Shown piece after piece: positions 5,332-59,956 of a stretch of DNA of 64,000 nucleotides. Position 1 is the stretch's first letter. Each line of letters begins with the position of its first letter. The notes beneath the pieces are model-generated. The model made no database searches, was not told the origin of the DNA, and saw only the letters and a program-made list of their open reading frames with translations. Source of the stretch: Lactiplantibacillus pingfangensis (GTDB lineage: Bacteria > Bacillota > Bacilli > Lactobacillales > Lactobacillaceae); assembly GCF_005404945.1 (NCBI RefSeq), contig NZ_BJDG01000003.1:62001-126000 (forward strand). The letters are read 5' to 3'. Both the position numbers and the translations under genes were made by a program.

Positions 5332-5485
5332 TTAAATTGTTTTACGGATCACTGGGATTGATGGTTGACGAACGCTATGATGTTGGTTACTGCAACAAGT
5401 AACTTTAGTCTAGTTCGGAAGTTGTTTATGTTAAACATAGATGGCATATCGCAATCTTAAGTGATTTTTTTTGGCGCAAGCCGAC

Positions 5486-16382: not shown

Positions 16383-16489
16383 CTTCTCGGGCTAAATTAG
16401 GTAAACTAATCGTTGGTATTGTTTGCCCCACGATAAGCCCCGGAAATCTTATTGAGTGTCAAGCAAAACAGAAAATGGAGGAACACAAC

Positions 16490-54280: not shown

Positions 54281-55743
54281 TGGACTTTTTCAACCAAGAT
54301 TTGACTAGCCTACACAGTGACTTAGTTGCTAAAAAGCTGAGCGCGGCAGAATTAACTCAAGCGACCTTTGCAAACTTAAAGCAAACGGATGCTAAAATCG
54401 ACTCATTTTTGAATTTAAACGAAGACGAAGCTTTAGCCGCCGCCAAGGCCTTGGATGCTAAAGGAATTAACGCTGATAATGTTTTGGCGGGAATTCCGGT
54501 TGGGGTCAAAGATAATATTGTGACCAAGAACTTAACCACTACCGCTGCTTCTAAAATGTTAGAAAACTTTGTGCCAGTTTACAACGCCACAGTTGTGGAT
54601 AAGATGACACAAAATGACATGATTATCGTCGGTAAAACTAACATGGATGAATTTGCTATGGGTGGTTCAACCGAAAACTCAGCCTTTAAAGTGACGAAGA
54701 ATCCTTGGGATGTTAGTCGCGTGCCTGGTGGGTCGTCTGGCGGCTCTGCTGCTGCAGTTGCAGCTGGGATCGTGCCAGTTGCATACGGTTCTGATACCGG
54801 TGGCTCAATTCGTCAACCAGCGTCCTTTAACGGGATTGTTGGGATGAAGCCAACTTATGGCCGGGTTTCTCGTTGGGGCTTGATTGCCTTTGGGTCTTCC
54901 TTAGACCAGATCGGGCCAATGACGCGCACCGTTAAAGATAATGCGGCTGCGTTGAACTTGATTGCGGGTAACGATGTGCATGATGGGACGTCGTCTGAAC
55001 GTGAAGTTCCTGACTTTACCGCTGGCTTGACTGGCGATATTAAAGGGATGAAGATCGCCTTACCAAAAGAATATATGGATGACGGGATTGATCCTAAGGT
55101 ACGCGAAGTGATCAAAGCTGCTGTCAAGCAGTTTGAAGACTTAGGTGCCACGGTTGAAGAAGTTTCCTTACCACATAGCCGTTATGGCGTGTCGGCTTAC
55201 TATATCATTGCTTCTTCTGAGGCTTCCTCAAACTTACAACGGTTTGATGGCATTCGTTATGGTTTCCGGGCAAAAGATGTCAAAAACTTGGAAGATGTCT
55301 ATGTTCGTAGTCGTTCCGAAGGTTTTGGTGATGAAGTTAAGCGCCGGATTATGTTAGGGACGTTCTCCTTATCTGCTGGTTACTATGATGCTTACTTCCA
55401 CAAGGCTGGCCAAGTTCGGACGATGATTATTAATGATTTCAAGAAAGTCTTTGAAGATTATGATTTAATTATCGGACCAACCGCCCCAACACCAGCATTT
55501 AAGATTGGTGACGAAATTTCAGATCCAATTACGATGTATATGAACGACGTTTTGACGATTCCTGTAAACTTAGCAGGCTTGCCAGGAATGTCAATTCCAG
55601 CTGGTTTTGCAGATGGCATGCCAGTCGGACTACAATTAATTGGTAACTCATTTGATGAGAGTACGCTCTATAAAGCAGGCTATGCCTTCGAACAAGCCAC
55701 TGATTTTCATCAAGCCACCCCAGATTTAGGAGGTCAGCATTAA
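54280..55743 (+). CDS. gatA: Asp/Glu-tRNA amidotransferase subunit A
   Basis: GatA is the amidase that frees ammonia from glutamine. The amidase signature [14 protein letters not shown] and the Ser-cisSer-Lys elements (GVKDNIVTK with the Lys; [13 protein letters not shown]) are intact. 487 residues. It overlaps gatC and gatB by one base each. Confidence 0.96.
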
Positions 55744-57167
55744 TGAATTTTGAAACAACAATTGGACTTGAAGTCCACGTTGAATTAAAAACAAATTCAA
55801 AGATCTTTAGTCCTTCACCCGTTCAATTTGGTGCGGAATCAAATGCCAATACGAACGTGATCGATTGGGGCTATCCTGGGGTCTTACCAACGGCTAATAA
55901 GGGCGTTGTCGAAGCAGGGATTAAAGCTGCGACCGCGTTACATGCTGAAATTGAACATGAAACTTATTTTGACCGCAAGAACTATTTCTATCCAGATAAC
56001 CCAAAAGCTTATCAAATTACGCAGCATGAAAAACCAATCGCGCACGATGGCTGGATTGAAATTGAAGTCGATGGTCAAAAGAAAAAAGTTGGCATCGAAG
56101 AAATGCATATTGAAGAAGATGCTGGGAAGAACACTCATGAAAATGACTACTCATATGTCGATTTAAATCGGCAAGGGACGCCATTGATTGAAATCGTCTC
56201 AAAGCCAGAAATCAATTCGCCAGCTGAAGCTTACGCCTATTGTGAAGCCTTGCGTCAACGGATTCAATTTACCGGCGTTTCCGACGTTAAGATGGAAGAA
56301 GGCTCAATGCGGGTCGATGTGAATATTTCGATCCGACCAGCCGGTTCTGACAAATTTGGTGTTAAGACTGAAATGAAGAACTTGAACTCATTCACTTACG
56401 TTAAGAAGTCACTTGAGTTTGAAGAACAACGCCAACAACGGGTGTTGATGTCTGGTGGTCAAGTGCAACAAGAAACGCGTCGTTTTGACGAAGTTTCCGG
56501 TCAAACGATTTTGATGCGGGTTAAGGAAGGTAGCGATGACTATCGTTACTTCCCAGAACCAGATGTGCCAGCAGTGTCAATCAGTGATGATTGGATTAAG
56601 ACGGTTCAAAAAACGATTCCTGAAATGCCAGGTTCTCGTCGCGACCGTTATGTCAACGAATTTGGCTTAACGGCTTATGACGCTGGCGTTTTAACCCAGA
56701 CGAAGGAAATGTCAGACTTCTTTGATGCTACCGTCAAAGAAGGGGCCGATCCTAAGTTGACTTCAAACTACTTGCAAGGGGACGTGAATGCGTTCTTGAA
56801 CGAGAATAAAGTGGATTTACAAGACACCAAGTTAACCCCAACGAACTTAGCTGGCATGATTAAAATGATTTCCGACGAAACGATTTCAAGTAAAATCGCC
56901 AAGAAGGTCTTCAAGGCAATCATGCAAGGCACTGAACCCGTTAAGTGGGTCAATGACAAGGGCTTGATTCAATTATCAGACCCAGCGAAGTTGCAACCGA
57001 TTATTGATAATGTTTTAGATAACAATCAACAATCCATTGATGACTTCAAGAATGGTAAGGATCGGGCGATTGGTTTCTTGGTTGGTCAAATCATGAAGCA
57101 AACTCACGGCCAAGCTAATCCTAAAGTGGTTAACAAATTATTGATGACATCATTAAAAGCACGGTAA
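55743..57167 (+). CDS. gatB: Asp/Glu-tRNA amidotransferase subunit B
   Basis: GatB binds the misacylated tRNA, phosphorylates it and receives the ammonia. The 474-residue protein has the N-terminal catalytic cradle ([21 protein letters not shown]), [11 protein letters not shown] and a C-terminal YqeY-like tail domain. No terminator follows; a structured element D lies between it and dagK. Confidence 0.96.
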
Positions 57168-57175
57168 TCAAAAGA

Positions 57176-57286
57176 GTGTGTTGATGGGCGGGAGCTGCTG
57201 AGCATTGCCTAGCCATCAGTATCATGCGTTTTTGGCATGGTACTGGTGGCGTAGCAAGCGCAGGCCGCTGCCCATCATAAGCACGT
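57176..57286 (+). other. structured RNA-like element D, copy 1, upstream of dagK
   Basis: About 111 bases. The ends pair through GATGGGC / GCCCATC, with a second stem near GGGAGC / GCTGCC. The long inner hairpin, 57212-57227 with 57235-57250, pairs throughout with two G-U pairs. The same layout occurs at 58414, with conserved flanks (GCCTAG before and GTAGC after the hairpin) but different hairpin bases. Confidence 0.75.
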
Positions 57287-57350
57287 TTCGGCTGTCTAGT
57301 TAGAAACGTCGGCACCAATTCTTTACTGCGAGACGCGGAGGAAAAGAAAC

Positions 57351-58361
57351 ATGCGTAAACGGGCACGAATCATTTATAACCCGACATCGGGGCGTGAAGC
57401 ATTAGCTCATGACCTCGTTGAAATTCTTGGAATTTTTGAACAAGCTGGGTACGAAACCAGTACCTATGCAACAACGCCAGCGCCCAATTCAGCGGCTGAT
57501 GAGGCGCGCCGGTGTGCCAAAGACGGGTTTGAGTTACTCGTAGCGGCAGGTGGTGATGGGACCATCAATCAAGTTGTGAACGGCATTGCCGGTTTAAAGC
57601 GGCGGCCACGCATGGCAATCATCCCCGCTGGTACGACCAATGATTATGCCCGGGCCTTACGCATTCCGCGTAATGATCCGGTTGCGGCGGCAAAAGTGGT
57701 TTTGAAGAATCAAACGGTTCATATGGACATTGGCCAGGCCGGCGAGCAATACTTTATTAATATTGCTGCCGGTGGGTTGTTGACGGAGCTCACCTATGAT
57801 GTGCCGTCACAGCTGAAATCCATTTTTGGATATGCAGCCTACCTCGCTAAAGGCGCCGAATTATTGCCACGGGTTAAACCAGTTGAAATGGACCTGAAGT
57901 ATGAGGGGGGCCATTTTACTGGGAAAGCCTCAATGTTTTTCTTAGCATTGACGAATTCGGTTGGTGGTTTCGAACAAATCGTGCCAGATGCTTCTTTGGA
58001 TGATGGCAAATTCACGATGATTATTGTGAAAACGAGTAACGTCGCGAAAATGCTCCATTTGATGACATTGGTCTTAAACGGTGGGAAACATATCAATGAC
58101 CCAAGCATCATTTATGTGAAGACCCGAAAAGTGGTTGCGCGGGCGTTAGATGATCGTTTGATGATCAATATTGATGGGGAATATGGTGGCGATGCGCCGA
58201 TGACGTTCCGTGATTTAAAGCAACATATCGAAATGTATGCGGACACGGATCGGATTCCAGATGAGGCCATCACGGACCCAGAATTACAAAATGCCGAACG
58301 AAACTTCGTCTCAGCGGTCGATCAATTACCGGCAGATACAGACGATTCAGAAACTGAATAA
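57351..58361 (+). CDS. dagK: diacylglycerol kinase (DagK/DgkB type)
   Basis: A soluble lipid kinase that recycles diacylglycerol from lipoteichoic acid synthesis into phosphatidic acid. The GGDGT motif is in AAGGDGTINQVVNG (near residue 65), followed by PAGTTNDYARAL. 336 residues with an acidic tail (DTDDSETE). A GGAGGAAAAG site precedes the ATG. Element D copies flank it. Confidence 0.93.
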   Translation: MRKRARIIYNPTSGREALAHDLVEILGIFEQAGYETSTYATTPAPNSAADEARRCAKDGFELLVAAGGDGTINQVVNGIAGLKRRPRMAIIPAGTTNDYARALRIPRNDPVAAAKVVLKNQTVHMDIGQAGEQYFINIAAGGLLTELTYDVPSQLKSIFGYAAYLAKGAELLPRVKPVEMDLKYEGGHFTGKASMFFLALTNSVGGFEQIVPDASLDDGKFTMIIVKTSNVAKMLHLMTLVLNGGKHINDPSIIYVKTRKVVARALDDRLMINIDGEYGGDAPMTFRDLKQHIEMYADTDRIPDEAITDPELQNAERNFVSAVDQLPADTDDSETE

Positions 58362-58369
58362 CTTGCTTA

Positions 58370-58410
58370 AATTACCGTTTACCGATACAATGGTGGACGG
58401 TAATTTTTTT
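58370..58410 (+). terminator. dagK terminator
   Basis: AATTACCGT (58370-58378) pairs with ACGGTAATT (58397-58405) and is followed by TTTTT. The loop is 18 bases. It directly abuts the second copy of element D. Confidence 0.85.
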
Positions 58411-58413
58411 AGA

Positions 58414-58524
58414 GTGCGTTGATGGGCGGGAGTCGGTGAGTAAGGCCTAGCGATAGTCTTAATGCGTTTTTTGCATTCAGACTGTCGTGTAGCCTGCGGA
58501 GCCGACTGCCCATCATAAGCACGT
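58414..58524 (+). other. structured RNA-like element D, copy 2, upstream of the rlm gene
   Basis: The same 111-base layout as at 57176: outer GATGGGC / GCCCATC, second stem AGTCGG / CCGACT (in copy 1 different bases), and an inner hairpin CGATAGTCTTAATGC (58451-58465) with GCATTCAGACTGTCG (58473-58487). Both arms differ from copy 1 yet remain paired. Confidence 0.75.
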
Positions 58525-58585
58525 TTCAAAAAAATAAAAAAAACAGTTCGCGTAACCAAAGAAAGTAAAAAGAGGAAACCAATAC

Positions 58586-59956
58586 ATGAAAGTTGATTTA
58601 CCAGTTTATAAAGGCGAAGTCTTAGATGTCACCATCATGGACTTAACTTATCAAGGCATGGGTGTTGCCAAAGTTGACAATTATCCAATCTTCATTGAAA
58701 ATGCCTTACCAGAAGAAAGAATCTCCGTCAAAGTGACTAAAACGACGAAGAATTTTGCTTTTGGTGATGTTGAAAAGATTGAACAAGTGAGTCCCCATCG
58801 GGTCAATCCTAAGGGACGGGTTTACCGTCAGACTGGGATTGCCCCACTACAACATTTGGAATATTCTGAACAATTGAAATTCAAGCAACATCAAATTGCG
58901 GAATTGTTTGCGAAGGTTCACATGGATGATGTCGAAGTGTTACCAACCATTGGCATGGCAAATCCAACGCAATATCGGAATAAGGCGCAAGTTCCAGTTC
59001 GCCAAGTTCAAGGCAAGTTAACCACTGGTTTCTTTAAGAAGAGCAGTCACCAATTAATGCCAATTGAAGACTACTATATTCAAGATCCAGCGATTGATCA
59101 TGCTATTATTGTGGTTCGCGACATTTTACGCAAGTATCATGAAGCGGCTTTTGATGAATTCCATCACAGTGGGACGATTCGGACGATTATGGTTCGTCGT
59201 GGCTATTACAGTCACGAAATGATGGTCGTGATCGTCACACGGACGAAACATTTGCCAATGGCTGATGTCGTTGTTGAAGAGATTCAGGCAGCTTTACCAG
59301 AAGTCGTCTCAATCATCCAGAACGTCAATCAAAAGCGGACTAACGTCATCTTAGGGCCGGTTAACAATGTGTTGGCTGGTAAGTCAACCATCAATGACCA
59401 ATTGTTAGGCTTGACCTTTGCAATTTCTGCCCAATCGTTCTATCAAGTGAATCCACAACAAACCGAAAAATTGTATCAACTCGCAATTGACCAAGCTGGT
59501 TTAACTGGTAATGAAACTGTGATTGATGCTTATTCCGGGATTGGGACGATTTCCTTGACCATGGCGCAACATGCTAAGCAAGTCTACGGTGTGGATATTG
59601 TGCCGGCCGCGATCGACAATGCCCGTCAAAACGCTGACAAAAATGGCATCAAAAATGCCAAGTTTGTCTTGGACAGCGCTGAAAAAGCGATGGCTAAGTG
59701 GGCCGAAGACGGTCTCAAACCGGATGTGGTTGTCGTTGATCCACCACGTAAAGGGTTGGATGAAGCCTTCATCGAAAGTGCCGCCGAAATGGGGCCAAAG
59801 CGCGTAGTTTACATTAGTTGTAACCCATCAACGCTAGTGCGTGATGTCCAACGGTTTGGCGAACACGGCTATCATATTGCCGCACCCGTTCAACCAGTGG
59901 ACCAATTCCCACAAACACCACATATCGAAAGTGTTACCGTGTTAGTTAAAGACTAA
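58586..59956 (+). CDS. rlmCD: 23S rRNA (uracil-C5)-methyltransferase, RlmCD/RumA type
   Basis: A 456-residue RumA-family enzyme that makes m5U in 23S rRNA (in Bacillus one enzyme modifies both U747 and U1939). An N-terminal TRAM domain (about 1-60), the SAM motif DAYSGIGTISL, VVVDPPRKG and the nucleophile region YISCNPSTL are present. The iron-sulfur cysteine cluster of E. coli RumA is not visible. GAGGAAA precedes the ATG. The symbol is by analogy. Confidence 0.9.
   Translation: MKVDLPVYKGEVLDVTIMDLTYQGMGVAKVDNYPIFIENALPEERISVKVTKTTKNFAFGDVEKIEQVSPHRVNPKGRVYRQTGIAPLQHLEYSEQLKFKQHQIAELFAKVHMDDVEVLPTIGMANPTQYRNKAQVPVRQVQGKLTTGFFKKSSHQLMPIEDYYIQDPAIDHAIIVVRDILRKYHEAAFDEFHHSGTIRTIMVRRGYYSHEMMVVIVTRTKHLPMADVVVEEIQAALPEVVSIIQNVNQKRTNVILGPVNNVLAGKSTINDQLLGLTFAISAQSFYQVNPQQTEKLYQLAIDQAGLTGNETVIDAYSGIGTISLTMAQHAKQVYGVDIVPAAIDNARQNADKNGIKNAKFVLDSAEKAMAKWAEDGLKPDVVVVDPPRKGLDEAFIESAAEMGPKRVVYISCNPSTLVRDVQRFGEHGYHIAAPVQPVDQFPQTPHIESVTVLVKD

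Follow-up and report, generated by a model that had tools for sequence, protein, structure and literature searches.

The diacylglycerol kinase gene dagK of Lactiplantibacillus pingfangensis lies, within the 64,000-nucleotide stretch of DNA analysed here (the window), between gatB and a 23S rRNA uracil methyltransferase gene, and each of the two gaps holds a copy of the same structured repeat. The landmarks are given below in window coordinates. Bit scores of the copies are those of covariance model R1, which was built from alignment A1 (24 diverse copies).

55743-57167, + strand: gatB (NCBIfam NF004011, 903 bits)
57173-57289, + strand: repeat copy 1, in the gatB-dagK gap, AGAGTG...CACGTTTC (R1 108.3 bits, E 5e-28)
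57176-57189, + strand: 5' arm of the outer helix H1 of copy 1, partner 57270-57284 (structure counted on alignment A1)
57190-57192, + strand: conserved GGG(T) bulge of copy 1 at the H1/H2 boundary (alignment A1)
57200-57211, + strand: conserved 5' core of copy 1, GAGCATTGCCTA (invariant or near-invariant columns), containing the GA internal loop, the bulged A and the CTA internal loop
57212-57250, + strand: inner hairpin H3 of copy 1 with loop GTTTTTG, both arms variable among species
57251-57262, + strand: conserved 3' core of copy 1, GTAGCAAGCGCA (alignment A1)
57284-57308, + strand: small second hairpin CGTTTC-N13-GAAACG, 3' of copy 1
57351-58361, + strand: dagK, diacylglycerol kinase (NCBIfam NF009603, 547 bits)
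58369-58410, + strand: dagK terminator-like hairpin with T-run, directly 5' of copy 2 (from sequence)
58411-58527, + strand: repeat copy 2, between the dagK terminator and the RlmD-family gene (R1 102.1 bits, E 3e-26)
58586-59956, + strand: 23S rRNA uracil methyltransferase gene, RlmD family (NCBIfam TIGR00479, 462 bits)

The original prediction had placed two 111-base elements at dagK on the same strand. Both are real and the + strand is confirmed, but the length was short, the full unit being 117 nt. Copies 1 and 2 are identical at 87 of 117 positions, and their folds gave z scores of -6.1 and -7.6 against shuffles (0 of 200 shuffles equalled either). R1, whose training set included both of them, matched the window exactly twice, at copy 1 and copy 2. 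The inner hairpin does differ on both arms, at 7 of 16 pairs and with pairing kept, although to say that each copy pairs fully was slightly generous, because the inner hairpin of copy 2 contains one T.C mismatch. The position of the second element directly after a terminator was borne out by the dagK terminator-like hairpin (ACCGT...ACGGTAATTTTTTT) that adjoins copy 2; across 21 Lactiplantibacillus genomes this hairpin shows small changes and is always 3' of dagK. The terminator scan of the window did not list it, probably because of its long loop. Within it (window 58363-58410), TACAAT occurs 17 nt after TTGCTT. Conservation of the hairpin and of a TACAAT-like box is wide among the 21 genomes, so that the dagK terminator may overlap with a promoter of the next gene; as a candidate this promoter has a weak -35 match and was absent from the list given by the scan. 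The small CGTTTC-N13-GAAACG hairpin is kept at the copy 1 site in four species, and few other copies have one. Elsewhere in the window, Rfam matched an L13 leader and an L17 downstream element (16415-16474 and 5369-5445).

What had been taken for a two-copy element is instead a dispersed repeat, with 42 copies in its own genome according to R1. The covariance-model search found many homologues in lactobacilli, which excludes a chance origin of the window pair: all 21 Lactiplantibacillus genomes carried the repeat (8-112 copies each), and within Lactobacillaceae it was present in 73 of 151 genomes and 20 of 40 sampled genera. These counts are lower bounds, as only the best first-look candidates were scored. 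With blastn, copy 1 matched 11 places in its own genome and most other Lactiplantibacillus genomes searched, with no match outside the genus, and a pattern of the conserved core matched more than 115 stretches in named genomes, those listed being Lactiplantibacillus only. The genus-restricted repeat that blastn suggested was overturned by the covariance models, which gave a much wider distribution. In the rest of Lactobacillales R1 found little (two genomes outside Lactobacillaceae). With a broader model, R2, another family of the order yielded diverged relatives in 9 of the 29 genomes examined, one of which has 68 copies, closely spaced ones included. Read by eye, these relatives retain the bulge, the GAGC/GCCGA core and a 5' end of AGRGTG or similar; their internal loops differ, and most of them end in ...GACTA. 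A further dispersed repeat was seen in genome G009 (L334, L337, L340 and others), where the right flank of our locus L196 (G000:C5, just after 78684), used as query, matched over about 110 bp at 76-86% identity in roughly 35-40 copies.

In agreement with the original prediction, the element is absent from known RNA families, Rfam 15 giving no match at the gathering score over either copy and only chance-level ones up to E 10, and it is a conserved single-stranded structure. Phage, plasmid and IMG/VR collections, searched by blastn or exact patterns rather than with the covariance model, yielded no match, and thus nothing to suggest that phages or plasmids carry the repeat. A literature search, with most subscription journals outside its coverage, returned no account of the family, which is apparently undescribed so far.

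The unit measures about 117-120 nt between fixed ends, AGAGTG...CACGTTTC-RRC. Its consensus reads AGA-GTGT-GA-[H1]-GGGT-[H2]-GA-GC-A-TTGC-CTA-[H3]-loop in the 5' half and [H3']-GTA-GCAAGC-GSA-[H2']-[H1']-GA-ACAC-GTTTC-RRC in the 3' half. One strand folds into a long hairpin made of an outer helix with a tandem-GA step, the GGGT bulge, a second helix and the inner hairpin, and the GA/GSA, bulged-A and CTA/GTA internal loops between helices are all conserved. In A1 the loops are invariant or nearly so while the helices vary freely: 93% of pair cells hold standard pairs, and two-sided changes occur at 35 of the 43 pairs. The covariation score was 0.736, as compared with 0.19 after shuffling and about 0.1 when partners were slid. 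A set of 110 copies, in an alignment fitted to the model, gave 95% standard pairs, 41 of 43 covarying pairs and a score of 0.83. Near the outer end, the tandem GA/GA is exchanged for Watson-Crick pairs among copies. G.T pairs outnumber A.C pairs 5- to 13-fold, by 71:13 in A1 and by 239:39 and 141:11 in non-redundant subsets of larger sets. Since an A.C pair here is a G.T pair on the opposite strand, only the AGAGTG...CACGTTTC strand must be folded. This shows that the folded form is one single strand and not a cruciform; RNA and single-stranded DNA, which look alike at the sequence level, would both fit.

The positions of the copies do not agree with the proposal of a cis-regulatory element ahead of genes. 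A simple ORF caller identified both neighbours of 203 unique copies. Co-directional tandem genes flank 77 of these, convergent genes 61 and divergent genes 21, and the remaining 44 are antisense to the genes on both sides; a general role as upstream regulator was rejected on this gene context, the downstream gene being co-directional in only 98 of 203. The upstream gene runs toward the element in 138 of the 203. Of 244 copies, 64 have a run of five T in the 20 nt before them, and not one has such a run in the 20 nt that follow. A simple terminator finder was applied to 238 copies and to random intergenic points from the same loci. A terminator T-run lay no more than 15 nt from the 5' end in 24% of the copies and from the point itself in 3.5% of the random controls; terminator adjacency of any kind was seen in 46% and 19%, respectively. 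The loci behind these positions had largely been retrieved with the core pattern and the covariance model, and some species contribute more of them than others. In L172, L254, L185 and L171 the element stands shortly after a GCGGTACCACC (T-box-like) stretch, seemingly at one locus in four species and with largely different stems in most. Copies at transcript ends imply that many are probably transcribed within UTRs.

At dagK the two sites behave differently. G009, G013 and G020 carry orthologues of copy 1, as do G011 and G007 in diverged form. Among G000, G009, G013 and G020, 15 of 39 positions of its inner hairpin vary, versus 2 of 78 outside it (p 7e-7), and many of the H3 changes are stepwise with pairing kept. 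Third codon positions of dagK are only 67-75% identical in the same four genomes, so that outer positions this well conserved point to a function in place rather than an idle element. From these comparisons, copy 1 appears to be constrained in place and to have acquired a role there, and some copies, copy 1 included, may have been co-opted. At the copy 2 site, at least eight species (its own included) have a copy, and the stems differ greatly among them; many other species have only a degenerate copy there or none. A role of copy 2 in the leader of the RlmD-family gene is possible. The shared outer arms of the window copies hold in G000, G009 and G020 but not in G013, whose second-site copy carries a different outer helix, and recombination or duplication across dagK would be a likely origin of the sharing.

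Evidence for mobility came from subfamily B (AGAGTGGGACAAAAGG...), whose closely similar copies in the window's own genome have unrelated flanks. Homology begins sharply at AGAG and the 3' tail often takes in a terminator; the element either separates the stop codon from the terminator or has taken the place of the terminator. At four such sites in G009, G013 and G020 the element was absent in 12 of 12 cases, and each of the same 12 places presented the gene end and then a hairpin, mostly with a T-run. Sites that are filled here and element-free in three sister species indicate that the family is mobile and has spread recently; at the divergence of these sister-species sites, clean insertion junctions and target duplications are unreadable. 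The pairs G001/G002 and G004/G016 presented no clean empty sites, only deletions, remnants and rearranged neighbours.

We think that these repeats are probably non-autonomous miniature mobile elements of Lactobacillales, served by a trans-acting factor that reads the folded single strand. Such a recombinase or transposase would recognise the strand through its loops and place copies in or next to sequences that form hairpins, mainly terminators and copies already resident, the substrate of mobility being either single-stranded DNA or RNA. A search of the own genome for this factor found no mobility gene for the repeat. The sole Y1_Tnp match there, an IS200/IS605 TnpA (139.8 bits) encoded beside tnpB, scores 43.6 with the REP-transposase model (cut-off 80), and the 1.5 kb on each side of it contain no pairs of terminal and core element motifs. 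A RAYT was rejected as the mobility factor in this genome, the only Y1 match being IS200-type and lacking flanking elements. Locus L222 (G000:C19:35193-38555) is of the IS200/IS605 type, with divergent tnpA (140 aa) and tnpB (384 aa), the latter of the RNA-guided endonuclease family. As for a MITE of a known insertion sequence, no autonomous partner was noticed, and target duplication is unreadable at the diverged sister-species sites.

Alternatively, the hairpin could be a UTR element that acts at the RNA level, stabilising, processing or marking mRNA ends, selected by the host and spread only secondarily. The folded strand is indeed the mRNA-like one, by the G.T excess of the two larger subsets, the upstream neighbour mostly points at the element, subfamily B sits after the stop codon and before the terminator, and copy 1 is conserved in place. 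Nevertheless, the copies antisense to both neighbours and those between convergent genes do not suit such a role, many copies come after a terminator and thus beyond the expected transcript, and the dagK-site copies are lost or degenerate in many species, for which reasons we regard this explanation as rather unlikely.

Head-to-tail arrays are frequent, with 3-6 nt between units. In G017 and G008, two sister species, three-unit arrays with a common left flank (L139 2194-2561; L055 3905-4273) have reversed unit order, units 1, 2 and 3 of one matching units 3, 2 and 1 of the other at 97, 91 and 85% identity in identical orientation; a longer ancestral array that lost units by deletion would be another possible source of this. 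By analogy with attC recombination, one might imagine a cassette-like system without genes or integron, widespread in Lactobacillales, in which a dedicated recombinase would read the folded single strand of every unit and add, remove, reorder or exchange units at terminators and resident-unit ends, and we offer this as a tentative and on the whole unlikely idea.

Discrete small RNA genes, each copy being the source of a trans-acting RNA processed to about 110-180 nt, would account for the defined fold with conserved loops and for subfamily B, in which the element is followed by a terminator-like hairpin, often within the repeated unit. We consider them very improbable, since the unit brings no promoter-like part (upstream of the sharp AGAG boundary, 20 nt are merely T-rich) and a T-run follows the element closely in not one of the 244 copies.

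A mobile element exchanged among resident copies also fits the way in which orthologous copies differ. Where flanks are more than 90% identical, they fall into two classes, in which two-sided changes affect either none of the 43 pairs or 7-18 of them (counted on each alignment's own structure), and in the latter class one-sided changes are fewer than two-sided ones in nearly all cases. Thus, L113 and L097 (flanks 99.2% identical) differ by 11 double-sided changes and 1 single, and L172 and L254 (95.8%) by 17 and 2. The two classes argue for wholesale replacement in place and not for gradual compensation, and an array that grew beside the resident copy and then lost the old unit would account for it. 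Template-switch copying between the arms of an inert repeat (quasi-palindrome correction), with covariation of no functional meaning, would likewise produce numerous simultaneous two-sided changes and few one-sided ones, but it is scarcely credible, because it should also erase the mismatched loops and bulges, which are the most conserved positions, does not predict a strand preference and so leaves the strong G.T excess unexplained, and has to face single steps such as TG, TA, CG in H3 of copy 1.

These repeats form an apparently new family in food and gut bacteria, with a fold strongly backed by covariation and no entry in Rfam. They provide natural cases of fast stem exchange beneath a fixed fold and a testbed for how structured miniature elements choose terminators and when they join gene regulation, and they warn that structured-RNA candidates from lactobacilli can be mobile repeats. 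Among known systems, integron attC sites conserve structure over sequence, fold from one strand, have conserved unpaired positions and form arrays that change order. Our family resembles them in its conserved shape, single folded strand, fixed unpaired positions and arrays of changing order, and departs from them in its 3' end, which is GTTTCRRC and not the GTTRRRY core, and in having no gene cassettes between units. EFAR, which is the same as Efa-1, targets short stem-loops and removes part of the stem-loop on insertion, and the terminator adjacency and replaced terminators described here may reflect a similar targeting. The Efa-1 repeat of Enterococcus faecalis is 163 nt long, has 65 copies and consists of two adjacent stem-loops (PMC2267715). 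Both families are intergenic, multicopy and of similar size, whereas, by description, ours differs in its conserved internal loops, free stems and many genera. BOX, RUP and ERIC are other miniature dispersed intergenic repeats (listed in PMC2267715), likewise small and foldable, and are set apart by description through different sequences and hosts. REP and REPIN sequences are dispersed imperfect palindromes of intergenic regions, with complementary changes, clusters or arrays and presumed single-strand recognition (PMC2817692, PMC3116915), and PMC2817692 described RAYTs only from gammaproteobacteria. The present repeats share with them the dispersed intergenic folding units, the preserved pairing and the arrays; unlike REPs, they span about 117 nt, start with AGAGTG and contain no GT(A/G)G head that we recognised, and, unlike in REP/RAYT systems, no RAYT gene flanked by inverted copies was found in the own genome. 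Judging from these parallels, the best reading is that the family would work in the manner of the REP/REPIN and EFAR/Efa-1 repeats.
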